From Amphiura filiformis (lineage: Eukaryota; Echinodermata; Ophiuroidea; Amphilepidida; Amphiuridae): 64,000 nucleotides of DNA. Under the pieces are notes generated by a model. The model was not told the DNA's origin and ran no database searches. It saw nothing but the letters and a program-made list of their open reading frames with translations. The position numbers and the translations under genes were made by a program. Shown here piece by piece: positions 25,238 through 63,603 of this stretch. The number at the start of each line of letters is the position of its first letter. Position 1 is the stretch's first letter. The stretch covers positions 16,087,208 to 16,151,207 of the forward strand of contig NC_092642.1 in assembly GCF_039555335.1 (NCBI RefSeq). The letters are read 5' to 3'.

Positions 25238-25307
25238 ATGGCGATGTATCTTCGGTGGACATTTCTGCTTGTTGCTGTGCTAGCTGTCACTCCAACGGTC
25301 AACTCAG
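25238..25307 (+). CDS. Gene A exon 1: signal peptide
   Basis: ATG at 25238 opens MAMYLRWTFLLVAVLAVTPT, a typical signal peptide with an Arg in the n-region, a Leu/Val/Ala core and a likely cleavage near VNS. The exon ends TCAG|GTATGC after one base of a Gly codon (phase 1). The 70-bp exon is matched base for base in length by gene B exon 1 (48248-48317), with two or three changed residues. The upstream in-frame codons are less likely to be used because homology with gene B begins its conserved coding part at this ATG. Confidence 0.82.
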
Positions 25308-28300
25308 GTATGCTGTTTCTTTGTTTTCAAATAATGGTACATGATTGGTTTAAAATCATTAAAAACATGTTTTGACATCTTTTTGTGCAGCAAATGACAC
25401 AATTTTCGCCAAAATGTATAAGCTAAATATACAAACTGGTTAATTTCAGTCAATATCTCATCACTCTACATGTTTAATCATTAAAAACACGTTTTGACAT
25501 CTTTATGTGACACAAATGACGCCATTTTTGCCAAAATGTATAAGAAAAATATACAAACTGATTTATTTCAGTCAATATCTCATCACTGTAAAGGTTTAAA
25601 ATATTTAAAAAACATGTTTTGACATCTTTATGTGACGAATAGAACACCATGTTCGCCTAAAATGTATGCATAATATGTGATGCGATCAAGCAAAATCAGC
25701 CGGAACTCGGAAATGTTGATTTTGAGATAATAGCCAAAATATTGAAATATTTCCTTTTGTTTCATGTTGTTTTGGAAACTCTTAATTACTCATATCTTTT
25801 GAACTGGTTGTTCAATTTCAATGGGGTTTTCTGCACAATGCAGCTAATATTTCAGAGTTCCGACTGATTTTGCTTGATCGCATCACATAATACAAACTGG
25901 TTTATTTCAGTCAATGTCTCATCACTTGACCTTGAAATATTAAAAATAGCTTGTTAATTGTTAAAAAAACACATTTTGACATTATTATGTGAAGCAAATG
26001 GCACCATTTTCGCCTAAAATGTATAAACAAAATATACAAATTGATTAATTTCAGTCAATGCCTCATTACCTGACCTATAGAACTATTCCGAATGGCTTCC
26101 ATTTGCAGTGTATAAATTATTGTCTTCAAATTAAATCATGTTTGTATATTTTGCTTTAAATGCATTTAAGTGGTTACGGCCTTGGACTGATAATCTGAGA
26201 GCTTGCTCGACGTGCGTGGGTTCGATTCCCCGTCCCACCACCGTGTTGCGCCCTTAAGCAAGGCGCTTTGCCTCGCTTGCCTCACCCCACCCAGGTGCAA
26301 TGGGAAGCTGTTAGGGGTAGTCACAGTCGTTGTACTGATGGACCCTGCGCCACTTGTAGGCTGCAAACGTGGTTCCGACATATTCTAATGACGGCGGAAT
26401 AAATGTAAAGCGCTTTGAGGCTGTTTACGGCATAAAGCGCTATATAAATATCTACATTTATTTTATTTATTTTAAATTTAGGCGACAATGGTGCCACATG
26501 CGTCACATAAAGATGTCAACACATATTTCTTAATGAATTTTAACCTGTACAGGGCAAATGACAGCCATTTTGAATATTTCAAGGTTAGGTGATGAGATAT
26601 TGACTGAAATTCATCGGTTTATATATTTTACTTATACAATTTGGGCCAAAATAGTGTCATTTGCATCAAAGATGTCAAAACATGTTTTTTTATGATTTTT
26701 AACCCATACAGTGCAAATGGCAGCCATTTTGAATATTTCAAGGTCAACTGATAAGACATTGGCTGAAATTAATAAGTTTGCATATTTTGCTTATATATTT
26801 TGAGAGAAACTGGTGTAGTTTGCATCATATGAAGATGCAAAACATGTTTTTTAATCATTCTTAACCTGTACAGTGTAAATGGCAGCCATTTGGAATATCT
26901 AAAGGTCGAGTGAGGAGACATTGGCTGAAGTTAATAAAGTTTTTTATATTCAGTTTATACAGTTAAGGCTAGAAATGGTGCCAATCCGTCACATAAAAAT
27001 GTCCAAACATGTCGTTTCAATGATTTTTAACCTGTACAGTACAAATGGCAGCCATTTTGAATATTTCAAGGTCAAGTGATAAGACATTGACTGAAAATAA
27101 TAAGTTTGTGTATTTTTCTTACATTTGGATACATTTAAGGTGAAAATTGAGGTATTTGCTCCTCATAAAGATGCCAAAACATGTTTTTATAATTATTTTT
27201 TATACACTTGGTGATTTTGGGCACCATCTTGGATTTAAGGAAAAATCGAGGTGGCACAAAAGCTTATTTTCATTCTAGTAACCCAAGTAACATATGTGCC
27301 AAGTTTGGTTCTGGTAGGAAAATGCAGTATTTTTTTTCCTGTGATGAACCTGCCTATGTACCCACACTATTTGTTTCAGGGCCTCGAACAGGGGCGTAGC
27401 AAGAGCCTCGGGGTGGGGGCATGGACAAGGAGCAATACGGGGCCCTTTTAACATCCCCCTTCCAGTGTTTCTAAGCAAATAAGAAAACCTAGTGGCCTAA
27501 AAGTATATGGTTTAATTAGCCATAAATTGGCAAATGGCCATTTGCGACTGACTTTTGTATATTTAATCTTTATTAGGCCTATACATGAATTTTAAGACCG
27601 CTGTTAAATAGATTAACTTGATATTTTCATACCTTACATTAAGTAATTAACACACAGGAAACAAGAGGCAAACCTTTTGAATCTTTGTTGTTGGTTTAGT
27701 ACATGACTGGGAATGATGTTAACGTCCCAGGTTAACGTATTTATGCATCTGAGAGTGTCATCCTCATCGAGGGGTAGGCCACCTTTTTAACACGCTGGGC
27801 TAGAAATAAACTATGAAAAACTGCACGGGCTGCACATTTTTCAAAGTGCACTATTAAAATCATTTACAATAATTTGATTTGCTAATGTCCTATTTTGTCT
27901 GAATTAATTTGGTAAACTATGTAAATTAATTCAAATGTTTCCATGTCTAAAGTCTATAATCCTTGACCAAAATGTATGATTATGAATTTTGAAACTTTAA
28001 TGACTGCAGAAAAAAATGGAAGAGGAAGTCATTCCATATTTTTATCATCATAACTAAAAATAATAGTCCTAATACGTACATGTAATGAAGTTTATTCTTA
28101 GATATACAAAATTCACGGGTCATTTGATCATTATGAAAATTATTCACGTGTCTTCTCATGAATCAAGTAGTCATGGAAACCTTTGAAAAAATAATTTATA
28201 CATAAATCCCAGTTATATAAATCATCCCATGTCAACAAATTACATATTCTATAGAAAATATTTGACATTGAACATGTTGAAATAAAGAAAAAAGCGATCA

Positions 28301-31300
28301 CATCCCACGTAGGCCTACACTCGTACGGCACCTATTACCATGGACATTTTGCGTTCTAATAATAATAGTGTTAATACGATTTCGGTTACATTTTAATTTG
28401 ATTATTCTTTGCCAAATATTATGCAATATTATTAGGAAAGTTTTCTGGTCAGTTTAATCCAAACTTATGAGGTACTCCTTATCTCAGCCGCAATAACTGT
28501 GGTGTTCTAATGGGGGGATTTTAATTCAAAGTTGCTTTTGTCCTAAAAACCACAACGAATTTGGTTGAATCCAATTACGTTTAAGTTGGGACTGGTGTGT
28601 TAACATTACAAATAATGGCAAAAAATCAGTTTTGGAAAACAATTGACCAAACTCATTTTAAAAGATCGTAGGCCCCTACATTATGGCTTTAAATAGCTTT
28701 TTTAAAACTACTTTTTACTAACATAATCGGCCTTTTTGAACCACTCCCCCTAAACAAAAGGACTTTCGTTCATGACTTCATCATACTTTTGGGTTGTTCC
28801 TTTCAAGTTTTCATTTCAAATTTCTACACACCAAGATTGCTATATTTACCTTGCGTTGAGATTCATCATTAATATACCCGTCTTTATTACACAGTCATGA
28901 CAATAACAATGTCAAACTTGAATACATAAGGCCACTCAGAATGTACTACCCACACTATAGATTCTATCGAGATTGATTGTTTATATAGTACTACACCTGA
29001 TGAAGGCAATTCATTAAATCGTTTTTTCTTTAATTATTTTGAACATGGCAACACAATTTTCAAGATTTTCCGACCTACTATAGGGCTTCTTGCTACTAAT
29101 ATTGTAAATACCACAAAGATCGAAATGTTAACTTTGAAGAGTATCATTTTGGCGTATAATTTTATTAAACTGCTTTTATGGCGAATCTTACAGAGGCCCA
29201 TCAAGATCTGGTACAATAGGACCAACCTACCGCTTGACAAAACACTGGACTATTGTAATAATGTGAAAGTATGGCAAGTGTTACAATTTCAGCAATGAAG
29301 GCTCTACTTTCCGCACTCACTCCGACTCACTATGGAAAAGTAGTCTCTTTTGCTCAAATAAAAGGGGTCACACAGTTACGCAATGGGAGAAATTTGTCTT
29401 TTTTTCTCTTTCAACTTCAATTATTATGAAGGGAAAGTCTTTTATTTTTTGGCTCACTCTTAATTGTCTCATGTATATATTAAACTTTACTTTCCCCGAT
29501 TTTCAAGGAAATCTGATGAAAGACCTCGTCGTACAGGAGCACTAAACACCGCAAGGTATTCCCAAAATCTCACTCGATTTACGGCGAAATACACTGACAT
29601 GCACCCCGTGTCATTAAAGTAGCGTCTATAGACGGCCCTCACTTGATAATAGAAAGTCCGATTGACTTGGCTCAAACGGTATTCATAGGTATTTCCTAGA
29701 AATACTTTGCCAGATTCTACTCTCTAAAAAGGAATCTGATTGGTTACAAAGTGCTGTCGTACCGTAGGAAAAACCATACCCTCTTCCGCACAGCCCTGCT
29801 TAGTGTGTTGTGTGGTCATGTATGCATTGTGCATTGACCTCGAACGCCTCTGTACACACAGCGTGCACACACTGGAGTCGAGTATAATTTATTTAACATA
29901 GGAAAACTTTTCCATATATCCAGCTGAACCTCGAACCCTCGGCGCCCATGGACTTCGTCCACCCTATCCACCCTTGCTACGCCCCTGGCCTTGATATTTT
30001 CTGTTTTTGTCGTTTGTTTATCTCTTGATCACTATTTGTTTAGGGTCTCTATTTTATTTGTGTGTTTTACCAAATAAAAACCATTATAAAATGAATGGCG
30101 CTCATAACTTTTTAAACGCTTTCAATAACTTTTCTCTCAAATTAGTTTGTCAAATATCAAAATATTAACAACAGGAATAGCAAAATTAATAAGACATGAT
30201 AGCAGAAAGACACACAATGAATTTGAGAACATCTTCAGTCTACCAATTCATAGATAAAATTGAAATGTACATTTGAATTTCATCGCGCGATGCTGCGATG
30301 TTTATTAAAAAGCATCGGAACATCGCATCGCGCTGCGATGTGGAGTCAGAATACCCAAAGTCTGGCTTGTGTTACCATAAATATTAATATGCTACTTTAC
30401 GTTCTTTCCCCGTAGGTTGTTCTGTGGGGCAACGCGTTGTGAATCGAGCTGGAAAAGTAGCTAATGTACGAATCGCAATGGTCTTGGTTAACAACGTCAT
30501 ATCATGCAATGGAGTCATTGCATCATGGCAGTATTGGCCTAAGCAATCATTCCCATTCAAAGCTATCGTATTCAGACAGGTTTTGACAGGTACCACCGGT
30601 GGCTCTACTTCCACTTGGAATATAATTGGTATAAATGACATCCCCGCATCAAACGTGATAGCCAACCGGGTTAATAGATACAACATTCCAACTGGTGATC
30701 GAATCGAAGTCCAAACTGGTGATGTAATCGGGATTGCGCACTACGATGATGGTCCGGTGATAGCTGCGGACGCAGCCGACGCATCGAACCCTGGCACCTT
30801 TCATCAAGTGGTAGTTAATAGCTGCCAATTGCAGTGTAGAATTTTGACGGAATCTGAAATTGGTAACCTAGAGGTGGGCAGTACGATAACCACAGTCTCC
30901 ACCCCAGACATTTGGCAAGGATCCACCGCGAGGCTTCAAGTTTCGCTTTCAGCTGAAGTTATTGTGCCACCAGTTATTGTGCCACCAGATTCCACGACGG
31001 GTAAGACAAATGCCGGCTTTACATGGGCAATTCCATGCAAAAGTGGACATGGCCCAAAACATGAAAAATGCTTAGAACTTTAAAACTACAAGTGCTACAA
31101 TGGCAAATTTGGTATCAAATGAAAGAAGTTAACATGCTCCTTAAATTAAGTTGTCTTGCAATTACGTTGGTGCATGTTTACCATGAATTTGTTTTGAAAA
31201 ACCTGTTTGTTGCCAAATTTGTTACTTTTTTGAGTGAAAAAAACCCTTACATTTTGGATCTGCTTTGCACATCTTTATTAAGATTTTATTTCATGTTTTT

Positions 31301-34300
31301 TGTTTTAAATTGCTCAAGGACTATCTAAATTTACATATTCTGTGATGTTTTTTTTTATCTTGATAATGCATTTATTACGTAATTCGGTTCCATCTTTTTG
31401 GCCGGACAAACTGTAGCACGAGTTACCGTAGCATAATCAATTAGGCTTTATAGTGTTTTTGTTTTAAGACACCATCAAAATAAACAACAGGAATAGCAAA
31501 ATTAATCAAACATGATAGCAGAAAGACACACAATGAATTTGAGAACATCTTCAGTCTCCAGATGTTTCTTAAATGATGGCAATGAAGATGTGCAATATTT
31601 GATGGTAAATTGTTCCACAATTTGGGTCCAACAACAGAGAAACTTGACCTCTTGTTTAGTTAATACATAACGGAACAAAGGTTTTTTGTTGTCAGAGTTA
31701 GATTTTAAAGGGGGAGAACGATAAAAAAGTTTTAAGCCCATTTCAAGAAAATACTTAATCCAACATTATTGAAAGACCTAACAATGAATCAGAAGTATAG
31801 ATTTCCTACAATTTTGATCCAAATTTGAAATTTCTACCAACATGACCCGGGAACATGACCAATGTTAGCTAACACATTTGATGCAACAATTTTTTCACTT
31901 CCAACTGAAGCCGGTTAGAACATTACAAAGGTGGCAGTGACGTCATCATTCCTTTGTTAACATGGTGAAAAAGTCAAATGAACTGCAGCGAAAAGAAAAT
32001 ACCAATTCTTGATTTTTGGTGAAAATTATGGGAGATCTAAACTACCAATTCATAGATAAAATTGAAATGTACTTTTCAATTCCATCGCGCGATTCTGCGA
32101 TGTTTTAAAAGCATCGGAACATCGCATCGCGCTGCGACGTGGAGTCAGAATACCCAAAGAACGGTAAGTCTGGCTTGTGTTACCATAAATATTAATATGC
32201 TACTTTACGTTCTTTCCCCGTAGGTTGTTCTGTGGGGCAACGTGTTGTGAATCGAGCTGGAAAACTGTCTAATGTACGAATCGCAATGGTCTTGATTAAC
32301 AACGCCATATCATGCAATGGAGTCATTGCATCATGGCAGTATTGGCCTAAACAATCATTCCCATTCAAAGTTATCGTATTCAGACAGGTTTTGACAGGTA
32401 CTACCGGTGGCTCTACTTCCACTTGGAATATAATTGGTATAAATGACATTCCCGCATCAAACGTGATAGCCAACAGGGTTAATATATACAACATTCCAAC
32501 TGGTGATCGAATCGAAGTCCAAACTGGTGATGTAATCGGGATTGCGCACTACGATGATGGTCCGGTGATAGCTGCGGACGCAGCCGACGCATCGAACCCT
32601 GGCACCTTTCATCAAGTGGCAGTTAATAGCTGCCATTTTCAGTGTAAACTTTTGACGGAATTTGAAATTGGTAACCTAGAGGTGGGCCGTACGATAACCA
32701 CAGTCTCCACCACAGACATTTTTGTAGGATCCACCGCGAGACTTCAAGTTTCGCTTTCAGCTGAAGTTATTGTGTCACCACATTCCACGACGGGTAAGAC
32801 AAAATGCCGGCTTTACATGGGCAATTCCATGCAAAAGTGGACATGGTCTAAAACATGAAAAAAAAAGATATATCAAGATAAACCTCACCATAGTAGTTAC
32901 TTATCATAATCAATTAGGCTTTATAGTGTTTTTTGTTTTAGGACACCATCAAAATAAAAGCGAGTAATTTTTTAGCATGTCGTAGCTCGTAGCACGAGTT
33001 TCCGTTTTTCGCAGCTGTCCCAAACATACAATAGTTTATATCTTCATGTAGCAATACTATGAGGATCTAGCCTTGAATATTGGTAAATTAAAATACAAAA
33101 AATAAAGGTTCCACTCAAATGAGTTAAAAAGCTGGAGCATCAACGGGGCTCGAACCCACGCTGCACTGCTCCTCTATCATGTAGGCCTATACAGTATCGA
33201 CATATCACCAGCGCCTTAGACCACTCGTCCACAAGGACTTGATGGTGTCGTCGTGAAAATTTAAACATATAATCGCAACTTTATTACTTCAACATACCAC
33301 GTGACAAGCAAAGACAGAAAACGTACCATATTTTGGAATTTTATTTGTTTAAAAACATTAATGTGTATTAATAGCGCTCAATTGTTGATAACTGCGTGTT
33401 CTACATATAAACCCGACAATATACATGCACAATACATTATCGATTTGAACTCGCTGGGCTGCTATATGGCTGCACGTGCTATACTCCTATTATACCGGGT
33501 TATGTGATCAGCCATTTTTCTTGTATACACAGTCTGGATTTTTGCAATTTATGGGATATTTCCACGCAGGTCTCCAAAAGATTCTTCCAGATATTGGAGA
33601 TTAGATTCCCATAAAGACGAAACAGTAATCTTTAGTCGGGACCTCAACATCAAAATTTACATAAAATTTTTACCATCAATTGAGTGTTAATTTTGACTAA
33701 ATTCAGAAAATATTTTGGCGTATATAAAATTGAAATAAAATTCTCTGCCTCCTAAATCACGTAAATTTTAGCACGATTGGGTATTACGAATCGTTATATA
33801 TGATGTGCAGTTAATATTCATATATTCTTTTATACATAGGATGCTTCAGTTTTAACACAAAAAATATTTCATTGAAAACCCTCCCACTCGGCGATTTCAA
33901 AAAGGTAACCACGCTTCCCTAGAATGTGCAATAAATTAGCATTAAGAATTTTCTTATTTTAGCAGCATTCTAGAAACTCTGGCGTACGGCGAGTACTGCT
34001 GTAGAGCATCAAGTTTGTTATAGGAGGCGCAAATGTGTAGCACGAGTTACCATGGAATTGCCCACATGTATAAATGTTTATATAAACATCAAAATAAAGC
34101 TAAGATTATATTATTACGCAACAAGTATGACGTGGGATGATCTTTTATCTGTATACGGCATAGATTGAAGCAACAAAGACCCTACCATATGGGTCAGATT
34201 TCCATCGCTCATCGCCAGTACTGAAATGTTATTAAATTTCAAATTAAACCATGCGAATATTGAGATAAAAATGAGCAATGAAAAAATGTAAATGTTTCTG

Positions 34301-35450
34301 TTGGTCAAATGTGTCACGTGACCCACTCAAGGTGGGTCAAGGAGTGACACAATGATCCACTAAGTGTGTCACATGACTCACTGACCCACTAAATGAGTTG
34401 GTTGACTCACTTCAAGTGTGTCATTTGACTTACTTGACCCAATAATGAGTTGGTTGACTCACTTCAAGTGTGTCATTTGACTCACATTAATCGTAAAGGG
34501 GGTCACCAGGCGGACAAAATGAATACTCACGTAGGTGAGTCACGTGACCAACATAAGTTTTGTATGGGTCCATCGCAAGCTGGAAGTCATAGGAGGCCGA
34601 TTATAATATAAACTGGTAAAATAAAACCAAGTTGCCTGATTTTATGCATTTTGGCGGCCATTTTGAAAATTCAAGGTCAAGGCGACCATTTGGGTTTTTT
34701 TAAGTTGTTCAGTTGAATTTGTCATGTCAGAAAACATAACTAGACACCAAAATCATGAAAAGTGGAAACTCTTAACGATTTTAGTAAAAATGCACCTAGC
34801 CGAAAGCACCTTTGTCACATTTCTGACCATAGCTCCGTAATCAAAGGTCGCAGATAGGGCAAACTATACCTTTCTGGATTCCTTATAAACAGGCGGGTAA
34901 TTAATTTGGTATACTTCTTAAAAGATTTGGGATACTTTATAATTATGACCCCTGTTTGACCTTAATTGACCCCTACCGAAATGCCTGACACTTTGAAGAG
35001 GGCAGTCCAAGCCAAATTTGTTCAGTACCCTTCAGGCATGCCAAAAACACTTTCAAACCTTTGTTGTAAGATTTGGTCACGAAACAGCGCTGGTCCTCTA
35101 CTACAAGGTGGGTTTTCAAAAAAGATCCTTCAAAAGTAACATTTGCAAATATGCACTGGGCTAATTTTCATTAGCAAAATGTAAGTATTACTGCTAGCCT
35201 GGGATGTCAGCATGAGGGGACTATCTTAGGTCCTGGGTGGGGAAGTAATATGACATGTTGTTCCCATTTTTCTTTCGCCATTGCATGTTTCGTTTTACTC
35301 TCCTTTTCTAACCTATATTTGTCATATTTTTTTCTTCATCATGTTCATATAGGATCCCAAGGCAACGGTGCCTCGCATTATCTCTACCAATCCTGGATGA
35401 CAATGGCTATCTTCTTTGCATCCGTCTCGACGATTATTTATTTATATTAA
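25238..35450 (+). CDS. Gene A: modular surface protein, signal peptide + two novel domains + hydrophobic tail (spliced model)
   Basis: Four exons joined by GT-AG introns, 25238-25307, 30416-31000, 32224-32793 and 35353-35450, give 1323 bp, or 440 residues plus a stop, without a frame break. Order: signal peptide (residues 1-23), domain A1 (about 25-218), domain A2 (about 219-408), and a tail with GNGAS followed by a hydrophobic stretch that ends the protein. All introns are phase 1. The predicted product enters the secretory pathway and is anchored at the cell surface, by GPI or by a C-terminal membrane segment. The domain is not one I recognise. Gene B downstream is a paralogue with a longer domain set. 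Introns carry an inverted tandem array, a SINE, CR1-like tails and MITE relics. Missed small exons are possible. No transcript evidence. Confidence 0.75.
25674..25889. mobile_element. 215-bp MITE with 33-bp TIRs
   Basis: The left end ATGTGATGCGATCAAGCAAA and right end TTTGCTTGATCGCATCACAT are inverted copies (perfect except one base near AAATCAGCCGGAACTC / GAGTTCCGACTGATTT). Inserted into the left tandem array of gene A intron 1. A split copy of the same family is at 23113-24650. Confidence 0.85.
26166..26462 (+). mobile_element. tRNA-derived SINE
   Basis: The 5' part looks like a tRNA: A-box-like TGGTTACGGCCTTGG near 26171 and a perfect B box GGGTTCGATTCCC at 26218-26230. A body follows, then a tail with AAAGCGCTTTGAGG and AAAGCGCTATATAAATATC, a 3' end familiar from SINEs of many marine animals, then a TTTTATTTATTTTA tail. 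It sits near the centre of the inverted array of gene A intron 1. The internal polymerase III promoter words are intact. Confidence 0.88.
27231..30160. other. Gene A intron 1, remainder
   Basis: No coding exon could be supported in this part of the 5.1-kb intron. A fragment around 27380-27470 (AGGGGCGTAGCAAGAGC and G-rich flanks) and one around 29965-29985 (TACGCCCCTGGCC) are the words that mark many decayed transposons in this window. The rest is AT-rich with no structure seen. Confidence 0.4.
30168..30300 (-). repeat. CR1-like tail fragment upstream of domain exon A1
   Basis: AACAACAGGAATAGCAAAAT followed by AGACACACAATGAATTTGAG is the same sequence as at 31490-31560, cut off after GAACATCTTCAGTCT. 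The longer copies (31490-31741, 55960-56110) encode, on the minus strand, the C-terminal peptide typical of CR1-like reverse transcriptases. It marks the left edge of the duplicated block that carries exon A1. Confidence 0.6.
30416..31000 (+). CDS. Gene A exon 2: novel extracellular domain, copy A1
   Basis: Acceptor CTTTCCCCGTAG at 30415, donor ACGG|GTAAGA at 31001, 585 bp (195 codons), phase 1-1. The domain starts CSVGQRVVNRAG. Other hallmarks are a second cysteine in SCNG, SWQYWP, FKAIVFRQ, STWNIIGINDIPAS, YNIPTGDRIEVQTGDVIGIA and a final LQVSLSAEV. Alternating hydrophobic residues suggest an all-beta fold. The two cysteines kept in all five copies may pair. The exon has a five-residue VIVPP duplication near its end, missing from A2 and B2, which explains its extra 15 bp. 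The domain family is not recognised. The minus-strand open frame here is a shadow. Confidence 0.8.
31490..31741 (-). repeat. Decayed 3' end of a CR1-like non-LTR retrotransposon
   Basis: The minus-strand frame reads ...CWTQIVEQFTIKYCTSSLPS FKKHL..., a decayed form of the GPxLWNxLP...SLPSFKKxLK peptide at the end of many CR1/L2-like polymerases. Related fragments lie in front of exons A1 (30168) and B2 (55960), so the insertion predates duplication of these exons. Confidence 0.65.
32224..32793 (+). CDS. Gene A exon 3: novel extracellular domain, copy A2
   Basis: Acceptor CTTTCCCCGTAG at 32223, donor CGG|GTAAGA at 32794, 570 bp (190 codons), phase 1-1. It is nearly identical to A1 (offset 1808 bp) and the match extends into both flanks, from the 30237/32043 words CTACCAATTCATAG through CATCGCATCGCGCTGCG to the ACATGGGCAATTCCATGC downstream. 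It is therefore a recent tandem duplication of exon plus intron. Differences include NAISCNG for NVISCNG and FEIGNLEVGRT for SEIGNLEVGST. The conserved cysteines and the GDRIEVQTGDVIGIA core are kept. Confidence 0.8.
33133..33241 (-). ncRNA. tRNA-like pseudogene or SINE head
   Basis: On the minus strand the sequence has an A-box-like GAGTGGTCTAAGGCGCTGG and a B box GGGTTCGAGCCCC, with a start GTCCTTGTGGACGAGTGG like Leu/Ser tRNAs. The region between the boxes is enlarged by about 30 bases (TATAGGCCTACATGATAGAG) and the acceptor arms do not pair well (GTCCTTG versus TGCTCCA). It is thus a tRNA-derived pseudogene or SINE 5' end rather than a working tRNA gene. Confidence 0.55.
34309..34560. repeat. 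TGACTCA/TGAGTCA-rich simple repeat
   Basis: Short irregular tandem repeats built of GTGTCA(C/T)(G/T)TGAC, TGACTCACTT and GTTGGTTGACTCAC. Several TGACTCA or TGAGTCA heptamers (the AP-1 consensus) fall within 250 bp, together with CACGTGAC words. Whether they act as sites is unknown; the periodicity alone could come from replication slippage. Confidence 0.7.
35353..35450 (+). CDS. Gene A terminal exon: hydrophobic C-terminal tail
   Basis: Acceptor TTCATATAG at 35352, then 2 + 96 bp ending at TAA 35448-35450. The peptide is SQGNGASHYLYQ followed by WMTMAIFFASVSTIIYLY and the stop. Small residues (GNGAS) followed by a hydrophobic end with no charged cytoplasmic part are the hallmark of a GPI-attachment signal; a tail anchor is the alternative. 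The exon, its 250 bp of upstream intron and at least 260 bp of 3' sequence are duplicated at the end of gene B. Confidence 0.78.
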
Positions 35451-43510: not shown

Positions 43511-43511
43511 C

Positions 43512-48247: not shown

Positions 48248-48317
48248 ATGGCGATGTATCTTCGGTGGGGATTTCTGCTTGTTGCTGTGCTAGTTGTCAC
48301 TCCAACGGTTAACTCAG
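48248..48317 (+). CDS. Gene B exon 1: signal peptide
   Basis: MAMYLRWGFLLVAVLVVTPT then VNS and a split Gly; the donor is TCAG|GTAGGC at 48318. Same 70-bp length and phase as gene A exon 1. The Kozak context is ATAGAATGG with G at +4. Confidence 0.82.
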
Positions 48318-51300: not shown

Positions 51301-54300
51301 TCAAATCGGGTGTAGGTGAAAACTCACCACACTTGAACTCTCCAGATGACCCTCACTTCAAAGTAGAAACATCTCCAATACATTGACTATATTGCATGCA
51401 CACCACTTCATCCCAACTTAACATAACACTTCCAATATGACAACCTATCATATTTCATTATTTGAACTTTCCCAACAACATTAACTCACCATATTTGAAC
51501 TCTCTAAATAACCCACCCCCAATTTAAAGTACAAACATCCCCAAACATCAATTAACATAACACCCTAACAACATCAGTGCAGTAACACGTTTTCACCAGG
51601 GTCAGCCAGCATCAAACTGCAGTATACATGTCTGCAGACTACAATACATGCATGTCTGCTGAATTCGACAACCTCAAAAAGGCCATATTTCCTGATGAAA
51701 AAGAAGCAATAAAATACATACTTTGAAACTTACGAAAAGCTGATTTTTCTTCCAGAGACATGGTTGCCATGCTCCCCATGAACTAGGCACCAGTAAAAAA
51801 GCCTAAAATACCCTTTAAACTGTTAATTTTTCAAAATTATTGGCAATTCTGAGCAGCATACAGTAGTCTGCTCCCTGACAGTTGGTGACCTCTGACCTAT
51901 CATGTGACCATATTTTTGAGGCTAATAATAGCCTCAAAAAAGTTGAGGTTAATTTTAGCCTCAAAATTAAAGCAGGCCAAGACGAGGTTAATTTTTAGCC
52001 TCAAAAACATTTCAGGCTAAGACGAGGTTAATTTCTTAGCCTTGTCACCGATAAGGTTAATTTCTTAGCCTCGATGGCTAAGTTGAGGTTAATTTTTAGC
52101 CTCAAAAGATATCGAGGCCAAGTTGAGGCTAAGGTAAGGCTTATTTAGCCTCGACTTATGGTAAGGGTGAATATTGACCCCGGGTAGGGGAACATTCTTT
52201 TCTCTTTTTTTTTCGAGACGTTTCAATGCTAAAATGAACAAAATTGAGGACAATATGTACCCTAAAATCGTGCCAAAGGATGATGCATAGGGCTTTTACA
52301 ACTTTTGGTTAATTTAGTCCCGGTATTTTGATCCAGTACACAAGTTTTAGCTTTTTCCAGACATTTAGAGGAGCTGCCGTATACGATTTACATTATAGAA
52401 AGGATGGATTATAACTCTCATTTTTGAGATCGAGATGAAAAAAAGAAATTTCCAAGGGGACGTCTCGCAGATCTGTTTACAGAATTGCTTTCCCGAGAGG
52501 AATGCGCGCGAAGCGTGCGGCAGTTTGGCATTTTAATACTAAATGGCCTAAAATGGGGTGAATTTTGGGTCTAAAATATGTAGACCAAAAGGAAGATGCA
52601 AATCGTAAATTTTGCCACAACATATATCTGTCGACTGAGCAGGGGAGGGACAGAAATATGGCTCAAATGTAGAATAAATATAGGCGAAGCTCGCAAAAAT
52701 TGGCACTTTTGTGGCTAAAATGACCAAATGTTAGGATAATTCGGCCAGAAACCCACTTCCAGGCGGAAACATGGGGGGGTGATTGTATGGACCACCATAA
52801 CAAAATATGGGGGTTATCCCCCATCCCCCGGGAAATACGCCTATAGGCTGATGAGGGCGATTTGTGGAGAGGTGATGGGATGCGCACATTATTTTGTCGA
52901 TCTTGCAAAATCATTAGTTCTTTATCTGCATCACCGCAACGCGCCTGACCAACATCATTGTAGGCCCAATAGGGGCTATATTACGAATTTATTTATTGTA
53001 ATCGTAATGTCCCCACTTTTTATTTTAGTCCCCACTTTGACGGTGAAAATCCTATGGTCCACTTTAACGGTTCGGTGGTACCTTCCCCTTCTCTCTCCCT
53101 TTCTCTCTTCCCGTCTCTCTTTTCCCTCTTTTTTAAGGATCCCTGTAGGTAACGCGCGCAGCATTGGATCCAACACAAATGCTCTTGTGAGAAGGAAGGT
53201 AGATTTGGTCTTGCAAGTTGGCGACATTACACTGGTACATTTTTACCACTTTGTAACATTGACTTCAATTTTGTTTTTCAAACTTTGCCTTTTCAGAATG
53301 TTCAGTGGGTCAAGAAGTAGCTAATCGGAGTGGATACTTATATACAATTACAATTGTATTAGTTGATAATGTCATATCATGTGATGGTATCATAACGTCG
53401 TGGCAGTTTTGGCCTAAAAACTCATTCTCATTCAAAGCCTTGGTATTACGACAATTAGCGGATGGGAATCCATCAAGCTGGACCATTATAGGAACCAATG
53501 ACATTCCTGTATCCGATGTGGTACCTAACCAGAAGAGTACATACATTGTCCCAGTTGGTGATCGAATTGAAGTCCAAAATGGTGACGTCATCGGGATAGC
53601 GCAGTACCATGTAAATCCGTTGATAGCGGCAGGTTCCTCTTATTTCCATGGTTCTACTGGAAGTGGTACACTCCTGCACGTTGCTATCAATGCACAAACA
53701 TCTAATTATTTAACAAATGGTGAGATTTTCAGTCTAACGCCAGGTAGCACGATAAGCACTGTAACGAGTCAATCGATTGGAGGAGCAGCTGAACCTTTAC
53801 AGGTGTCGCTTTCTGCAAACGTTGAACCAGGTATTTGAGATGTCAGTATAGTACAGGGCGTATCAAAATAAAGTAAACAGTTCGAAAAATTCTACTAGAT
53901 TAACAAGTACGAGGTATTTGGTCAAACTGCTCTATAGTCGATCGCTTAATCAACATCTTATCCACTCGCAACTGCAAAGTCACTGGAGTGTGACCACCCG
54001 GCTATAGATCTCACACCACTAAATCAGAGTCCTATAGAGATATGTGCTAAATTTGCCTTAAGAAAACGTCATTTTTTCTTCACAGGAGCGACTCAGTTTT
54101 TTAAAGCGACAGCTATGATGGTTGAAATCAGCCCTTGCCTGATCCCTCTGGCTGGGAAAAAATATAGGTTGACCGTCATTATTTTTTACGACTGGCCCTC
54201 GAAGTCTCGATGTCCGGGAATTGCCTATTTTACAGGCAAAATCATGCCAGTGTTTCTGTAAAGAAAAGGTTGCTTAAAATCATTAAAAGTTATTCGATCT

Positions 54301-57300
54301 CTCCCATCTGTGGTACACTTGCAGTATTTAACATTACTAATCATGACCAATCCAAATTTTGCCAAAATTATGCAAATTTCTGCTCATTTTAATGCATAAA
54401 TTGGGAATGCATGGTTTTTTTCTGAGAAGTAAAATTAAGGGCGCACAACCATATAATTCTATTCGGTGGTGTGAAATCATAAAGACTCAATGGCTATTTC
54501 GTGAACCGAGTACAAATGCAGTTGTGCGAATCGTTGCAGGTGGTCACAAGATGGTGCTCCTCCATAGCAAAGGAGAACTCATGTGCACAGTTTATCCCTT
54601 ACATATCCTGTGTCTTGAATAGCTATATGTGGTTAACCAGTGTGGTTAAGAGGCTAGGAAATAATTCCTAATATCTCATACCCTAGTATGCCTTTATCTA
54701 ATCTTGCCACGCATGACAACTTAATATTTAGCCTTACACCCGGGAAAGAGTCTGTTAAGTGGAGGAATTTTTTAGCCTTTTTTATAAACATGTTTTCAAT
54801 TGGCTTATAGCCATCACATGCTGACAATATACATAACTGATTGGTTAATCAAAACTACCATTTCATGGTCAGGCCTAATCACAAAGTAAACACATCATCT
54901 GTAATTAGAAAACTATGCAGCAGGCGATTTACTTCAGAAAAAGTTTAATATAATTACATTGCACAAAACTAAGTCCATTATCTATAGTTAATTGAATGTT
55001 TATTGACTCTTGTAATAACCCAGTTAATTAAATGTTAGAAATCACTTTTGACCCTGACATAAAAATTCCTTTAAAAAGGAACGTGCGCCCAATGTGAGCT
55101 TGGTCGTGATGTGGTGAATTTCATGGTGTTTAGATTTAGCACTACCGGGTAATTATCTCTTGCAAACCCGGTGATCGACACTTCATTATAGAAATCAGAC
55201 CTGTTGATAGGTTGTAAGAGGGGATAGCCTTTTCCAGGCATAAATTGGGCCATATATATAAAGAAAGTTTTGCTACTTTGCAACGCAATAAAAAACTAAA
55301 TACAAAATGAGGTTTTTTAAAATATTGTTTTCCAGAGTCAAGACGCAGGTATCATTATTAAGTCTCATATGACTTATTTATTGTCGAATAAGTGCAGAGT
55401 AGGTTAGATATGAATATTAAATGTTAGACCAAAGTAGCTCAAAGTACATGTACTATACACCTGATCCGTGAACTTGTCTTTTTTAAAGACAAATTCTTGT
55501 TTGGTATTGTGATCGCTTTGAATCCCCACTAATGGCCCCAGATCTCCTGATCTTATTTACACCACTAGATTTCTTGTAGGCTATCTGAAATCAAAGATTT
55601 TCACAAGTCCTCCTTTTCATGTTGTATTGACCTTGCGCAACTGCATTTTATTCGTCTCACAAAAATAGCCACCGAGTCCTTATTAAATGGTCACACGCCA
55701 GTTATGTTACGGTTACTAGTTGTTGGAGGACAAGGAGTTGACTCGGCTATCACCTAGGACCAAGTACCTCGTACATTTTAATGTGGTACCATTTTTAAAC
55801 GGTTTACTTTATTTTGTTTAATATGCTCTGTATAACACATGCATACATACGGTATACTTAAATACATACATGACATACGGCTACAAGTTTTATATAGCTC
55901 AATTACATCTAAAACAAGGCGCTGTACCTTGAATAAACAAAATTAGAACATATAAATATGAACAACATGAATAGCAAAATTAATCAAATATGGTACAGAA
56001 AGAATCAATCAATATGAGAACATGTGAGTCGTCAGATGTTTAAATGCTGGCATCGAAGATGTTTTAATATTTGATCGTAAATCTTCCGCAATTTGGGTCC
56101 AAACATTCACCTCCGGTAATCATCACATTACATCGTCATATCATTATTATATACTACCTACACCGGGCCACATCTAACATTTACCATCATAACCGTAGCA
56201 CAGCCATAACTAACATTGTTCCACTCTATGTTCTTTTCTCTAGGTTGTTCAGTCGGGCAACAGGTTGTGAATCGAGGAGGAATACTGTCTAATGTACGAA
56301 TCGCAATGGTCTTGATTGACAATACCGTATCATGCAATGGGGTCATTGCATCATGGCAGTATTGGCCTAAACAATCATTCCCATTCAAAGCTATCGTATT
56401 CAGACAGGTTTGACAGGTACCACCGGTGGCTCTACTTCCACTTGGAATATAATTGGTATAAATGACATTCCCGCATCAAACGTAATAGCCAACAAGATTA
56501 ATAGATACAACATTCCAACTGGTGATCGAATCGAAGTCCAAACTGGTGATGTAATCGGGATTGCGCACTACGATGATGGTCCGGTGATAGCTGCGGACGC
56601 AGCCGATGCAGCGAACCCTGGCACCCTTCTTCAAGTGGCAGTTAATAGCTGCCAAATGCAGTGTAATGTTTTGACGGAATCTGAAATTGGTAACCTAGAG
56701 CTGGGCAGTACGATAACAACAGTCTCATCCGCAGACATTTCTGGAGGATCCTCCTCGAGCTTTCAAGTTTCACTTTCAGCTGAAGTTATTATGCCACCAT
56801 ATTCCACGACTGGTAAGACAAATTACTGTCTTTACATGTTTAAATGTTGATATATAAAATTTTCTGTTGAAATAGTGTGCTGATTATTGTTGCTCAAATT
56901 GCAAAAAAAAAAAAAAGAATAAAAGTGTATTTCTGTTGGCAAACTTACTCTAAGAGCACACTGATCTACTCAGTAGATAACGTTAGATGTCCTTTACAAG
57001 TAACATATCTTAAAATACCAATCATGGCCCACATTTTATATTATAATGTACCTGCCATGATGCAGTCATGTCTACAGTAGAATTCAATTCGACCTTTGCA
57101 GGACTTAAACCCCATTAAAAGCTATTAAACCAAGATAACACTCATTGAAAACAGCTCAACTGATTAAATCATATCTTCTCTGGTTAAATACACACAACAT
57201 ATGTGTCTGCTTTAAACGTACAATGGAGCAATGAGCTGGGATTATACTTTCAGTTGGGTGAACGATTATAAAGCGAGCGCTAGAGAACAATTGTGTGTGG

Positions 57301-60300
57301 TCTTTGTTTACGAAATGAGACAATACATGCTTATTGTTAACCAGCGTTCTTGAAAATGAGAAACATGGTGGTTTGCAGACTTAACACGGGTTGGAAATAA
57401 TTTCTTCATATTTTTTGGTGTTATCTGTCGTTTACATATCCTTCCTAAAACACCAAAGTACGAGTATTTCCAAACATCTAAATTAGCTAAAATTTAGGAC
57501 ATGTTACAAAACTATATTGTCTAGAATTTTAGAAGAGTACTTTTAATATTGGCCGGTTATTTTTCACACAGCGACGTTAACTAGGCAATGTACTATTACC
57601 TATAACATTAACTAAAACACCAAAGTACGAGTATTTCCAAACATCTAAATTAGCTAAAAATTTAGGATATGTTACAAAACTATATTTTCTAGAACTTTAG
57701 AAGAGTACTTTTAATATTGGCCGGTTATTTTTCACACAGCGACGTTAACTAGGCATATCCCCATACTTTTAACGTAGGCTATTTGTAGAGGTCACGCGTC
57801 AATGGGAAAGAGCACTGTGTATTTTGTATAGGAAAACGGACAGTAACTGCAGTATGCATGCCGTTTTACTAATCAAACTATTTAAAACAATATTTATTTT
57901 TATCCTCAACTCTTGTTCAAGGTTCTGTGTGGTTCAGCAAATCGTTACATCAAATATCAGAAAGTCGTGGGAGTATAACCCTTACTATAGAAACCAATCC
58001 CTCTATTACATTAACCACTGTGGGTAAGTTGAATATTCATCAAATGGCGGGAAATACCATTTGAAACATTTTCTACACTGTTCACACCAATATGTATAAT
58101 AGTACAACCGTACTATGATACTGTATTGTATATACTTACTTATTACACAGCGTCAGACAGATCTAGATAGACTTTGAAAATTAACTATTTCTATCTTTGA
58201 ACAAGTTCATTTGGATTGTTAGATTTAAATGTTGGCAACTCTTTTTATACGAATCCAATAAAAATGAAGATGTTAAACTCACAGTTTAGTGACGTTTCAC
58301 TAGAGGTTTCATCAGACTGGCAACTCTGACTGCTTCCTTTCATACGGACGTAATGCAGTGAGAGACCTCCGATCGCTTGAAAACACTGAACGGAAAATAT
58401 CGCGTTTCAGATGTCATAGAGTATTCTCACTACGGACAAAACACAGTGATCTGATTCCAACCAGTTTAAAGCTCAAATGTCCAATCAATACAGTCCGAGC
58501 ACGTGCTTTCGTTAAATAAGCAGAGAAAGCTTTGTTAAATGAGAGCATTCGCGTAATTTCCAACAAAACCAGGTTTTTAGAGGAAGAGAAAACTCGATTT
58601 AACGCCGATTTAAAGTCCCGCGATGTAAACAAAGACCTGTCAATTCAAATCTCGCGCCATGTTGAAAACTCTCGCGAGAAAGAATTCCAATATGTCCGTG
58701 CCCGTCAAACACGGAAGTTGAAAGAGCTAGCGGAAAAACAGGGCAAATCGGCAAATAGTAATGCAAATGGGAACAATTCTCATGCGGAACCGGACTTGAG
58801 TGGCACTCAACTGAAGCGATAGGTCAAAAACCTGTCAAAATACAACATGATGCAGTCATGTCTACAGTAGAATTCAATTCGACCTTTGCAGGACTTAAAC
58901 CCCATTAAAAGCTATTAAACCAAGATAACACTCATTGAAAACAGCTCAACTGATTAAATCATATCTTCTCTGGTTAAATACACACAACATATGTGTCTGC
59001 TTTACACGTACAATGGAGCAATGAGCTGGGATTATACTTTCAGTTGGGTGAACGATTATAAAGCGAGCGCTAGAGAACAATTGTGTGTGGTCTTTGTTTA
59101 CGAAATGAGACGATACGTGCTTATTGTTAACCAGCGTTCTTGAAAATGAGAAACATGGTGGTTTGCAGACTTTACGGTTTGGAAATAATTTCTTCATATT
59201 TTTTGGTGTTATCTGTCGTTTACATATCCTTCCTAAAACACCAAAGTACGCATATTTCCAAACATCTAAATTAGTTAAAAATTTAGGACATGTTACAATA
59301 CTATATTGTCTAGAATTTTAGAAGAGTACTTTTAATATTGGCCGGTTATTTTTCACACAGCGACGTTAACTAGGCAATGTTCTATTACCTATAACATTAA
59401 CTAAAACACCAAAATACGCATATTTCCAAACATCTAAATTAGCTAAAAATTTAGGACATGTTACAAAACTATATTTTCTAGAACTTTAGAAGAGTACTTT
59501 TAATATTGGCCGGTTATTTTTCACACAGCGACGTTAACTAGGCATATCCCCATACTTTTAACGTAGGCTATTTGTAGAGGTCACGCGTCAATGGGAAAGA
59601 GCACTGTGTATTGTGTATAGGAAAACGGACAGTAACTGCAGTATGTGAACTGTCAGAAGCTCAAAATAGAGTGTTAGCTCGCGGCCTTGGATACGGGGTA
59701 AGTCCAGATAATCTAACTCACTCGTCCATTGTTGATGAGCATATCGTTGCGTGTGAGAGAGCGTGTTGGAAGCTTCCCAAACCTGAAGCAGCACAGTTAC
59801 CAGCTGAAATAGTAGGAACGTTAAAATCCGCGAAATTACCACCCTCAAATATCAGTCAAGTTGAGCGTGTCAATCTCCAAAAAGAGGAGTCCATCATGGT
59901 CTTGGGGGCTGACAAAGGACGGGCAACGGTTGTCATGGACAAAACGGGGTACCAACAAAAAATGTGCTCTCTCTTCAGCGACTCCAAGACTTATGAGAAA
60001 TTAGATCGAGATCCCACGCCAAAACACAAAAGAGAGCTGGTTTCAATACTACAAATGCTAGCGAAAGAAGACAAAATCAAGAAAGTGTTCCCAGAATTTA
60101 TGGTAGTCCTAAAATTCATAAGGACGGTACGCCACTTCGCCCTATAGTGGACTTTACTATGGGTCATAACGTGGCCAAATCTCTTGCCGATATTTTGAGC
60201 CCTATTGTTGGCCAACATGAGCACCATGTTCTAAACTCTAAAAGTCTAGCGGAAGATCTTAAAGATGTTACCCTTGAGGAAGATGAGATCCTTAATTCAC

Positions 60301-63300
60301 ACGATGTGGTGGCGCTTTTTACAAGCACCCCCATTGATACCACCCTTCACATACTCAGAGAAAGACTTAACGAGGACAAAGATCTCAAAAATAGAACCCT
60401 CCTCACTGCTAATGACATAATAGAACTTACTAAATTTTGTCTCGCTACGGTTGCCTACTTCAGCTATTCAGGTCAGATTTATCGACAATGTTTCGGCATG
60501 GCCACGGGTAGCCCCCTGAGCCCCATGTTGTAATATCTTTATGGAGTGGCTAGAGCAGAAAGCTATCTCCAAGGCCCCGGAAAGCTGTCGCCCACGTCTC
60601 TGGAAGAGATACGTTGATGATGTGTTAGAAATTTTACGCAAAGGACAAGTTGACAACCTAACTGATCGTTTAAATACCATTGATCCCACCGGTAGCGTCA
60701 AATTTACTTGTGAGCAAGAGCAAGACGGTTCTATTCCCTTCCTTGGTACCCTGATCACAAGAAAGCCAGACGGGTCAGTGAAACTCAGTATATACAGGAA
60801 GAAAACGCACACTGATCAGTACCTTCAGTTCTCCTCCCACCATCCTCTCTATCAAAAATTAGGAGTCGTCAGAACCCTACTAGACAGGAGTGAGGCGTTA
60901 GTCACTGAGGAAGCGGACAGACAGAAAGATATACGCGAAGCGTTATCTGGCTGCGGTTATCTAGATTGGTCGATCACAAAAAGTCAAACAAAATAGAGCC
61001 ACTCCAAAAACAAAGTCTACCCCAAAGAATAAAGATGACAGTGAAAAACTAAAGGCATAGTTGTAGTCCCCTTTATAGAGGGATTATCTGAGCGAGTTTC
61101 AAGAGTTTTCAAAAAACATGGATTTTCTACTGCTATGAAACCCCATCGCACCATCCGCAGTATGCTTGTTCACCCCAAGGAGGACAAACTCCTCTCTCGA
61201 TAAAAGCAGAGGCAATCTATGAAATCCCCTGCGGGGATTGTGCTGGTACTCATTGGAGAAACCGGCTCGGTGTTCCTCTCAAAGAACACCAAAAAGAGGT
61301 GGAGAAATTTGAAACTAAGCACTACACATGAGCCAGCCGCAAGTCATCTATCACAGACATTCACAAATCAGCTATCACCGATCATGTTGCCTCTACAAAT
61401 CATTCCATCAATTGGGAGGACTCAAAAGTCATCGACAGAGACCACTAGGTGGCTGAAAGAAGCCATCTTGATACGCCGAAAAGAAAACGACACTATAAAC
61501 TAGCCTTAACTAGCTGCAAGGGGGCTTACTCATTCAACAACAACTTTGACCAACTCATAACACCCTCTATAGCGGTTCCTGTTGCCTATAAAAGGAAGCA
61601 GTCAGATGTGATGAGTTGCCAGTCTGATGAAACCACTAGTGAAACGTCACTAAAAATGTGAGTTTAACAAACTATTTCTATGTTTACAAACAGAAATCCA
61701 GACGGCCGATAGTCGAGGTACAGCACGAGCCGGTACTGATTATACACCCATTAGTAGCAAATTGGTAGAGATTGGCCCTTCACAAACATCCAAGTCATTC
61801 TCGGTGTCAATCCTCCCTGATGAAGAAGAGGAATATGATGAGACGTTTGTAGTGGCTATCGTTAGCAGTACATCAGGAGCAATATCTGAACCTAGAGAAA
61901 CAACTATTACCATTGTGGATGATGACGAGTCTGCTAAATCAGGTAATTTGTGAGCTACCATAGACGATCAGCAGAAGGAGATGACCATCATATTGGCACA
62001 TGATAAAATTTGTTATACGTATATTATTATACGATATATAAGTCTTGTTTTTCTAATATGTAGGCCTAGCAGAAAAACAAACATTGTGTAATACTTACTA
62101 AACTAGCGCAACAGTTTTTTTCATAATCCTTTTCATGATCTGCAGGGGCGTATTCAGGGGGTTCGAAGTGCGTGAGCGCAAACATGCAGAATCTGCCAGT
62201 TTTGTGGCTATTCGTGTCGCCGCGTACCTTGGGATACAAGGTTTCTGTAATCTTCCCTCGTGTGGACCCATATTTTCCTCAACACGTTCAAGAATCTCTA
62301 ATAAATCATTTTCTTACCATTTGCACCCAGGATGTTCTATTGGACATGAGGTTGTAGATCGAACGGCAGATTTTTCCCATCACAAACTTGTTGCTGTTCT
62401 TCAGGATAACGCAGTTCCATGTAAAGGACTCGTAACCAAATGGGAGTTTTGGCCTCACAAGTCGGCATCTTTTAAAGCTGTGGTGTTCAGACAAACTGAA
62501 TCTGCAAACACCGCGATGTGGAAGATTATCGGTGTGAATGACATTCCCGTATCAAGTGTGGTAGCAAACAAGATTAAGAAGAACACATACATTGTCCCAG
62601 CTGGTGACAGAATCGAAGTAAAGAGAGGTGATGTAATCGGCATAGCTCAGTACGATGATAATCCACTTCTAGCATCTGATTTGTCTGAGACTGGGACTAC
62701 ATTGTATGTTGCTTATAGTACCGAGACCTCAGAAATTCTTTCCGAATCTGAGATAACCGACCTTAAGCCAGGTAGCATCATTAAAACGGTTACAATTGAG
62801 ACACTGGGTGGAGCTGGACCATTGTTGGTCTCTTTCTCAGCCGAAGTTGAGCCAGGTGCGTACATAGGGACATTTACTTTAGTCTATAGACACTCCGGTT
62901 AATGTATCTTTGCCCCCTTGAAATGAGACGCCCCCTGATGAGAATTTTGTGAATGAATTAAACCGATGCACTACACTGACCCAATTATAGTGGAGCTCTG
63001 CCAATTTTCGTAATCAAAGTGGCAGCAGGGATTATAGAGCAATTGCCGGCTGGGGTCAAAGTTCGAGAGGGAGAAATCTTAGCGCTTCTGGGACAGCATT
63101 CTCGAAGCTGTCTACATGGACAGGGCATGGTGTTGTGATCGAGGTTCTATTTTTTGTAACAAGCGATTAAAATTGTGAAGATCAAAATCGTTACTTATAA
63201 AATGCAGTAAAATATATCCACATCAAAATACCGGTCCCTGTTGTGTGCTTTTCCTAGATGAGTTTTCACGAAGGACCCTTGAAATGTATAATTTGCAAAT

Positions 63301-63603
63301 TATGCACTGGACTACGTTAACATTAACAAATTGTAGGTTTTACTGCCAGCCTGTGGGGGTCAACATCAGGGGACCAGTTAAGTCCTGTGTGGGAAGAGAT
63401 TATGACATGCTGCATGCTGTTCACTTACGCCCTGTTCTTATACGACACTACATGTTTCGTTTTACTCTCCTTTTCTAACCTCTATTTGTCATATTTTTCT
63501 TCATATAGAATCCCAAGGCAATGGTGCCGCGCATCTCTACCAATCCTGGATGACAATGGCTATCTTCTTTGCATCCGTCTCGACTCTTATTTATTTATAT
63601 TAA
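48248..63603 (+). CDS. Gene B: modular surface protein with three novel domains and a Calx-beta domain (spliced model)
   Basis: Seven exons: 48248-48317, 53297-53830, 56244-56812, 57922-58023, 61694-61942, 62331-62855 and 63509-63603. All junctions are GT-AG and phase 1. If the one-base deletion in the third exon is discounted, the product is 714 residues: signal peptide, domain B1 (about 25-201), B2 (202-391), Calx-beta (392-508), B3 (509-683) and the hydrophobic tail. As read, the deletion shifts the frame inside B2. Thus the gene is a pseudogene, skips exon B2 (which as a symmetric exon would restore the frame), or contains a sequence error. The Calx-beta domain suggests calcium binding and adhesion. 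Introns hold a mariner-like relic, CR1-like tail and a Penelope-like element. Confidence 0.7.
49016..49267. mobile_element. TTAA-type MITE, 0.25 kb
   Basis: Perfect ends TTAAGGGGGTACTACACCC and GGGTGTAGTACCCCCTTAA, with inner CATTGTATTTTTTATGCG / GCAAAAAAAAAAATGCAATG. TTAA at both borders marks a piggyBac-type insertion. Same family as 42133-42500. Confidence 0.88.
49412..49530. repeat. Small hairpin repeat
   Basis: GTAAAGTATTCGGTATCAAACC and GGTTTGACACCAAATACTTTAC type arms, with AATAGTCCTA / TGGACTATT outside them, form an imperfect hairpin with a loop of about 40 bp. Confidence 0.65.
50268..52175. mobile_element. TTAGCCTC foldback element, 1.9 kb
   Basis: Ends CTTACCAAAGGTCGAGGC and GCCTCGACTTATGGTAAG are inverted. 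The left arm (50268-50770) is a tandem array of TTAGCCTC-type octamers (CCTTAGCCTCACCTTAGCC, AAATAATTAGCCTC). The right arm (51910-52160) has the inverse TTGAGGTTAATTTTAGCCTC. Between them, 50870-51130 and 51140-51500 form inner inverted arms (GGTGAGTTGTCA / TGACAACTCACC; AGAGTTCCAATATGG). Confidence 0.82.
53297..53830 (+). CDS. Gene B exon 2: novel extracellular domain, copy B1
   Basis: Acceptor TTGCCTTTTCAG at 53296, donor CCAG|GTATTT at 53831, 534 bp (178 codons), phase 1-1, intact. The domain starts CSVGQEVANRSG and keeps SCDG, SWQFWP, FKALVLRQ, SSWTIIGTNDIPVS, YIVPVGDRIEVQNGDVIGIAQY and LQVSLSANV. It is clearly diverged from A1/A2/B2, with a shorter variable loop before WTIIG, so it is an older copy. 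Confidence 0.8.
53854..55830 (+). pseudogene. Mariner-like element relic in gene B intron 2
   Basis: Left end CAGGGCGTATCAAAATAAAG and right end CTTTATTTTGTTTAATATGCTCTG are inverted and flanked by TA. This fits a Tc1/mariner-type element of about 2 kb. Near 55530-55590 decayed transposase words can be read in two frames (WP, RSPDL, TPLDFL, GYLKSK), resembling the C-terminal signature of the mariner-related group. There is no intact transposase. Confidence 0.7.
55960..56110 (-). repeat. CR1-like tail fragment upstream of exon B2
   Basis: ATGAATAGCAAAATTAATCAA and the following sequence match 31490-31620. The minus strand reads WTQIAEDLRSNIKTSSMPAF, the conserved end of CR1-like polymerases. 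It sits 130 bp upstream of exon B2, in a position like those before A1 and A2. Confidence 0.65.
56244..56812 (+). CDS. Gene B exon 3: novel domain, copy B2, with one-base deletion
   Basis: Acceptor TTCTTTTCTCTAG at 56243, donor CTG|GTAAGA at 56813. 569 bp instead of the expected 570. Close to A1 and A2 throughout, including TGGTDGSTSTW-type loop coding and YNIPTGDRIEVQTGDVIGIA. At 56409-56411 it has TTT where A1 and A2 have TTTT (CAGACAGGTTT-GACAGG), which breaks the frame after FKAIVFRQV. Before and after this point the coding sequence is otherwise intact, so the change is recent or is a sequencing error. Confidence 0.75.
57057..57856. repeat. 0.8-kb repeat, copy 1 (gene B intron 3)
   Basis: About 95% identical to 58847-59645, from ATGATGCAGTCATGTC to ACTGCAGTATG. 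The ends are a weak inverted pair (CATGATGCAGT / ACTGCAGTATG). Each copy contains an internal tandem duplication of about 160 bp (ACACCAAAGTACGAGTATTT to ACGTTAACTAGGCA). This copy ends only 65 bp before the Calx-beta exon. Confidence 0.9.
57922..58023 (+). CDS. Gene B exon 4: first part of Calx-beta domain
   Basis: Acceptor TCTTGTTCAAG at 57921, donor GTGG|GTAAGT at 58024, 102 bp, phase 1-1. The peptide SVWFSKSLHQISESRGSITL matches the first two strands of a Calx-beta domain (V.FS...Y.V.E..G...LT). It is open and joins in phase to the exon at 61694. Confidence 0.72.
58291..58315 (-). ncRNA. Hammerhead-ribozyme-like motif, left end
   Basis: On the minus strand CTGATGA (58315-58309), ten bases, then GAAAC (58298-58294) and GTC (58293-58291). 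It is the inverted partner of the motif at 61624-61648. Penelope-like elements are known to carry minimal hammerhead ribozymes in their terminal repeats. Stem II is weak here. Confidence 0.45.
58847..59645. repeat. 0.8-kb repeat, copy 2, nested in the Penelope-like element
   Basis: Second copy of 57057-57856. It interrupts the Penelope-like coding sequence between NLSKYN (58830-58846) and ELSEAQN (59645 on); both flanks are retroelement sequence. ATG is present at both edges, possibly a short target duplication. Confidence 0.85.
61624..61648 (+). ncRNA. Hammerhead-ribozyme-like motif, right end
   Basis: CTGATGA (61624-61630), ten bases, GAAAC (61641-61645) and GTC (61646-61648), with AGT before and ACT after able to pair as the base of stem I. 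These are the conserved core words of a minimal type I hammerhead with a very short stem III, as described in Penelope-like elements. The weak stem II makes activity uncertain. Confidence 0.45.
61694..61942 (+). CDS. Gene B exon 5: second part of Calx-beta domain
   Basis: Acceptor TATGTTTACAAACAG at 61693, donor TCAG|GTAATT at 61943, 249 bp (83 codons), phase 1-1. It carries the Calx-beta signature words GTARAGTDYTPIS, QTSKSFSVSILPDEEEEYDE, TFVVAI and TTITIVDDDESA. Acidic clusters (DEEEEYDE, DDDE) are the usual calcium ligands of the fold. With exon 4 it makes a complete domain of about 110 residues. Confidence 0.85.
62331..62855 (+). CDS. Gene B exon 6: novel extracellular domain, copy B3
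   Basis: Acceptor ATTTGCACCCAG at 62330, donor CCAG|GTGCGT at 62856, 525 bp (175 codons), phase 1-1, intact. Starts CSIGHEVVDRTA and keeps PCKG (second cysteine), KWEFWP, FKAVVFRQ, WKIIGVNDIPVS, YIVPAGDRIEVKRGDVIGIA and VSFSAEVEPG. It is closer to B1 than to A1/A2/B2. The open frame extends upstream through the acceptor to 62135, but homology with the other copies starts at the cysteine, supporting the splice site. Confidence 0.8.
63509..63603 (+). CDS. Gene B terminal exon: hydrophobic C-terminal tail
   Basis: Acceptor CTTCATATAG at 63508, stop TAA 63601-63603. The peptide SQGNGAAHLYQS then WMTMAIFFASVSTLIYLY is like gene A with one residue fewer. The start of a GPI-type signal (GNGAA) is kept. 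The following 260 bp match the gene A 3' region. Confidence 0.78.

Follow-up and report, generated by a model that had tools for sequence, protein, structure and literature searches.

The GPI-anchored modular adhesion and recognition proteins of animals, as a class, combine a signal peptide, repeated extracellular-type modules each encoded by a single exon, phase-1 introns, and a hydrophobic C-terminus without a tail. Two tandem genes of the ophiuroid Amphiura filiformis appear to resemble this class in these respects, with a GPI anchor being putative, and differ from it in that none of the named families searched matches their main module. The second gene also resembles the Calx-beta proteins (PF03160), in that it carries one nearly full Calx-beta domain, and differs from them in that this domain sits between copies of another domain. 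Modular anchored surface proteins, the kind proposed here, are a familiar class; the module itself is unnamed in the libraries that were searched.

The window analyzed, a stretch of 64,000 nucleotides of contig NC_092642.1, contains both genes on the + strand where the preliminary description had placed them, gene A at 25238-35450 and gene B at 48248-63603, as established by tblastn and exon joining; 12.8 kb separates them. When both strands of the window were searched by tblastn with domain copies A1, B1, and B3, the signal peptide and terminal exons, and the Calx-beta domain as queries, these exons were recovered, including the five claimed domain exons (two in gene A and three in gene B), and the next best match had an E value of 0.34. 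The exons were the following:

25238..25307, + strand: gene A exon 1, containing the start codon and encoding the signal peptide MAMYLRWTFLLVAVLAVTPTVNS, which has a hydrophobic core; 66/70 identical to gene B exon 1
30416..31000, + strand: gene A exon 2, domain copy A1; GT/AG, phase 1-1, open
32224..32793, + strand: gene A exon 3, domain copy A2; GT/AG, phase 1-1, open; 95.3% DNA identity to A1
35353..35450, + strand: gene A exon 4, terminal exon GSQGNGASHYLYQSWMTMAIFFASVSTIIYLY*, a putative GPI-type or short membrane anchor; 90/95 identical to the gene B tail exon
48248..48317, + strand: gene B exon 1, encoding the signal peptide; matched by gene A exon 1 in tblastn (E = 1.7e-11)
53297..53830, + strand: gene B exon 2, domain copy B1; open, phase 1-1
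56244..56812, + strand: gene B exon 3, domain copy B2; 569 nt, one base short near 56409, with an immediate TGA in the acceptor frame
57922..58023, + strand: gene B exon 4, Calx-beta part 1; PF03160 when joined to exon 5
61694..61942, + strand: gene B exon 5, Calx-beta part 2; PF03160 when joined to exon 4
62331..62855, + strand: gene B exon 6, domain copy B3; 52% identical to B1, dN/dS 0.19
63509..63603, + strand: gene B exon 7, putative terminal anchor exon; tblastn with the gene A tail, E = 2.8e-15

The four exons of gene A join into one open frame of 440 residues comprising the signal peptide, two domain copies, and the hydrophobic tail, in agreement with the four-exon model proposed for it. 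All nine introns of the two genes have GT/AG borders, and every junction is in phase 1, apart from the shift inside B2, as had been read from the sequence; the chance of one stop-free 178-codon run at the base composition of the window is ~3e-6. The outline of the preliminary description holds with one important correction, a frameshift inside B2 that it did not mention: the seven exons proposed for gene B do not yield a single open protein, and the joined frame stops after 257 residues, inside B2. The Calx-beta domain that had been assigned to gene B was confirmed by Pfam (exons 4 and 5 joined, 62.4 bits against a cut-off of 27, E = 5.3e-17, profile positions 7 to 119 of 119), and none was found in gene A by tblastn with the gene B domain. 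A direct repeat of ~800 nt (57056-57856 and 58846-59645, 97.8% identical) flanks the first Calx-beta exon on both sides.

Both the signal peptide exon and the terminal exon are common to the two genes, as had been claimed. With gap columns set aside, the signal peptide exons are 94.3% identical in DNA, compared with 72.8% upstream, and the terminal exons are 94.7% identical, compared with 77.6% in the preceding intron and 89.1% in the 300 bases after the exon. Because these end exons are more identical than their flanks, genes A and B are, on sequence grounds, paralogues with conserved ends.

The locus as a whole is probably best explained as a pair of tandem paralogues encoding modular, anchored surface proteins of adhesion or recognition. 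Inspection of the exon for the putative signal peptide showed a hydrophobic core and conservation. The terminal exon is consistent with a hydrophobic C-terminus that no further residues follow; its best 17-residue stretch has a mean hydropathy of 1.72 in gene A and 1.68 in gene B and is preceded by small residues, and it may represent either a GPI anchor or a plain C-terminal membrane stretch. A signal peptide, repeated extracellular-type modules, a Calx-beta domain, and a hydrophobic end without a tail together point to an anchored surface protein, and the layout suggests adhesion or recognition. The sequence supports the earlier proposal of two tandem genes for modular proteins with a common domain, both probably secreted and anchored.

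Both genes would give rise to secreted proteins that stay attached to the outside of the cell membrane, the most likely means being a predicted GPI anchor. The signal peptide would probably be cut at the exon 1/2 junction, so that the mature protein would begin beside the first domain cysteine. Each protein would consist of beta-rich domains in series, every one encoded by its own symmetric phase-1 exon and probably containing one disulfide. Their most likely role would be to bind a ligand, either in the matrix or on a second cell, and the Calx-beta domain of gene B may serve as a calcium-dependent module.

The repeated domain spans ~175 to 195 residues and occupies one exon per copy. Among the motifs that had been listed as conserved, two cysteines, W.(F/Y)WP, W.IIG.NDIP, and GDRIEV..GDVIGIA are present in all five copies, B2 being read as two pieces in different frames; F.A.V.RQ is present in only four, with A2 reading FKVIVFRQ. 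In the alignment of the four full copies (201 columns), the invariant cysteines correspond to positions 2 and 31 of A1; both also occur in the first piece of B2, and A1 and A2 have two extra cysteines, at 137 and 141. An averaged Chou-Fasman calculation, crude and run without a control, gave 43% strand and 5% helix. The match between B1 and B3 scored 175 bits, compared with 27 bits for the best of 1000 B3 shuffles.

The earlier impression that the domain belongs to no known family was borne out only within what was searched: Pfam, NCBIfam, PHROGs, and PDB sequences, of which only Pfam and PDB cover animals, and DNA of prokaryotes, viruses, phages, and plasmids scanned by tblastn or with a limited set of patterns; the domain has no name in these libraries. 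No Pfam-A family exceeded its curated cut-off, with the five open reading frames as queries (B2 being represented by its post-break part only) and then with the four full copies. The best sub-cut-off matches of the four full copies were DUF7408 (PF24157, E = 0.027) and DUF5372 (PF17342, E = 0.034), which scored 13.8 bits against a cut-off of 27 and 14.3 bits against a cut-off of 25, respectively, in the open reading frame search; each involved one of four copies and a short stretch and was taken as chance. PDB sequences gave no significant match (best E per search of 0.46, 0.056, and 0.57, and none below 10), and the weak matches to the endoglucanase 1vho (E = 0.46 and 0.056) and to 2nyn (E = 0.57) were likewise attributed to chance. 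The four copies had no convincing match in NCBIfam, where infA, GroES, MamP, and PRK04388 (E = 0.042 to 0.16, one of four copies each) were dismissed, or in PHROGs, where the best E value, 0.0089 for phrog_854, came from one of four copies and was discounted together with two weaker PHROGs. No convincing match was found in GTDB genomes or IMG/VR, which were scanned with a few short peptide patterns that distant relatives could escape, or, with copy B1 as the query, in phages and plasmids; restriction subunit S, at an E value of 3 in seven plasmid records, was considered a chance match. No title on this domain was found among the literature matches listed for the domain, its layout, and exon evolution, and the motif GDVIGIA was absent from the five papers listed out of 297 matches to one of these searches.

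There is an even chance that the domain is a member of a described animal family that Pfam does not include or that these searches were not sensitive enough to detect. Pfam was queried with single sequences only, rather than profile to profile, and animal coverage was limited to Pfam and PDB; stretches like GD.I.V..GDVIG, which presumably occur in unnamed invertebrate proteins, were also counted for such a family, whereas the best E values from Pfam, under the cut-off, and from PDB count against it. As a further lead we took an actinobacterial surface domain that presumably has a similar GD.IG stretch, using a hand-written consensus that may be wrong. This consensus gave one weak match in Pfam (E = 0.048), nothing in NCBIfam, and a best E value of 0.46 in PDB. 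A bacterial origin of the domain gained no support: the consensus found nothing in plasmids, GTDB genomes, or IMG/VR (short-pattern scans), and no bacterial sequence matching the window domain was found in GTDB (short patterns) or plasmids. An hhalign match of the consensus to the window domain (77% probability) was set aside because the consensus had been composed with the window domain already in view.

Judged by dN/dS and codon positions, the older copies are clearly coding. In all five comparisons (A1 or A2 with B1 or B3, and B1 with B3), dN/dS was 0.15 to 0.24, a rough range given that dS between old copies is saturated (1.6 to 2.9), and third codon positions had an excess of differences (P = 4e-5 to 8e-7). 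Between A1 and A2, dN/dS was 0.93 on 27 differences that were spread evenly over the codon positions (10, 8, and 9; P = 0.89), and thus no constraint is measurable in these sequences since the two copies parted. Their identity was 95.3% in the exon (plus one 15-nt gap) versus 95.7 to 96.5% in the near flanks, and they appear to be a recent local duplication. The identity between A2 and B2 was 92.1% in the exon, 71.8% over the preceding 40 bases, and 47.1% over the following 70, with a further-upstream block of 159 columns common at 80.5%; this pattern would fit an older duplication of the exon unit followed by conversion confined to the exon, or breakpoints close to the exon ends. Domain number would change via the duplication of exon units, as in A1/A2 and the related B2. 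It is a tentative proposal, and on the unlikely side, that the domain is the founding member of an unnamed family of recognition modules restricted to animals, with a beta-sandwich fold stabilized by disulfides, and that this family diversified as single symmetric exons were duplicated, and possibly converted, between tandem genes.

B2 is 569 nt long versus 570 in A2 and has TTT where A1 and A2 read TTTT, and its acceptor frame runs straight into TGA (FRQV*). The loss may be a sequence error, B2 may be dead and skippable, or gene B may be decaying. The other six exons of gene B join, with GT/AG borders, into an open frame of 524 residues; because the internal exons are symmetric, the broken B2 could be omitted without loss of frame, and an anchored protein of this length would still be made. 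It is possible, if somewhat doubtful, that the missing base is an artifact of sequencing or assembly (TTT for TTTT) and that gene B is intact, with all seven exons: a single base is lost in a short T run, and beyond the break the original B2 frame is open past the donor (frame 56371-56850). A run of three to four Ts is, however, an atypical error site, and the dN/dS values of B2 against A1 and A2, 0.39 and 0.39 before the break, become 1.02 and 1.6 after it, a rise that rests on few changes and could reflect relaxed constraint. The constraint signal of B2 as read from these comparisons is mixed. That gene B is decaying into a pseudogene and that only gene A works seems decidedly unlikely: it would account for the base loss and immediate stop in B2 and for a ~3.4-kb retroelement-like insert with broken frames in the Calx-beta intron, but the remaining six exons retain their open frame and borders, the lesion is the only one in ~2.1 kb of coding sequence, and dN/dS between B1 and B3 is 0.19, though this value mostly reflects old history. 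A mini-intron at the break, which would be about nine bases long, was rejected from the sequence.

The retroelement-like insert occupies 58285-61654, in the intron that separates the Calx-beta exons, and contains reverse-transcriptase-like fragments at 59578-60996, with shifted frames, and inverted 42-nt arms that are 98% complementary. It may be a Penelope-like element, and the reverse-transcriptase label is likewise putative; Pfam searches with three fragments and with four gave no reverse-transcriptase match (only CRF, E = 0.011, with the four). The arms hold letters that we took for a hammerhead core; a hammerhead ribozyme was rejected, there being no Rfam match at gathering score over the window, and a search of the 3' arm at E values up to 1 yielding nothing beyond a weak match to snoU6-53 (E = 0.68).

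Elsewhere in the window, a TRIM-like gene at 14615-16795 consists of one uninterrupted frame, 726 residues long, in which RING, B-box, and NHL-type matches were found. A satellite of 82-nt units (10986-12535, 18.8 copies) is flanked by two copies of a 460-nt repeat (10073-10530 and 12722-13181, 99.3% identity), and arrays of 39-nt units occupy 22754-23067, 43905-45382, 45656-45958, and 47175-47279. The near-palindrome GCTATCTACTGCTGATAGC occurs in the consensus of three of these four arrays, and a similar sequence, GCTATCTACAGTAGATAGC, is found in the arrays at 2580-4301, whose period is 45 nt. On the minus strand, a 195-residue frame at 42991-43578 with a weak match to DUF6451 (18.5 bits against a cut-off of 28) is presumably the end of a LINE-type reverse transcriptase.

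Read as tandem paralogues encoding anchored surface proteins, the locus as it stands is a sound but ordinary gene pair with an uncharacterized module. If the domain is truly an unnamed family, naming it would annotate a class of invertebrate surface proteins, and the exon-limited similarity between genes A and B would offer a way to study how proteins of this type alter their module number.
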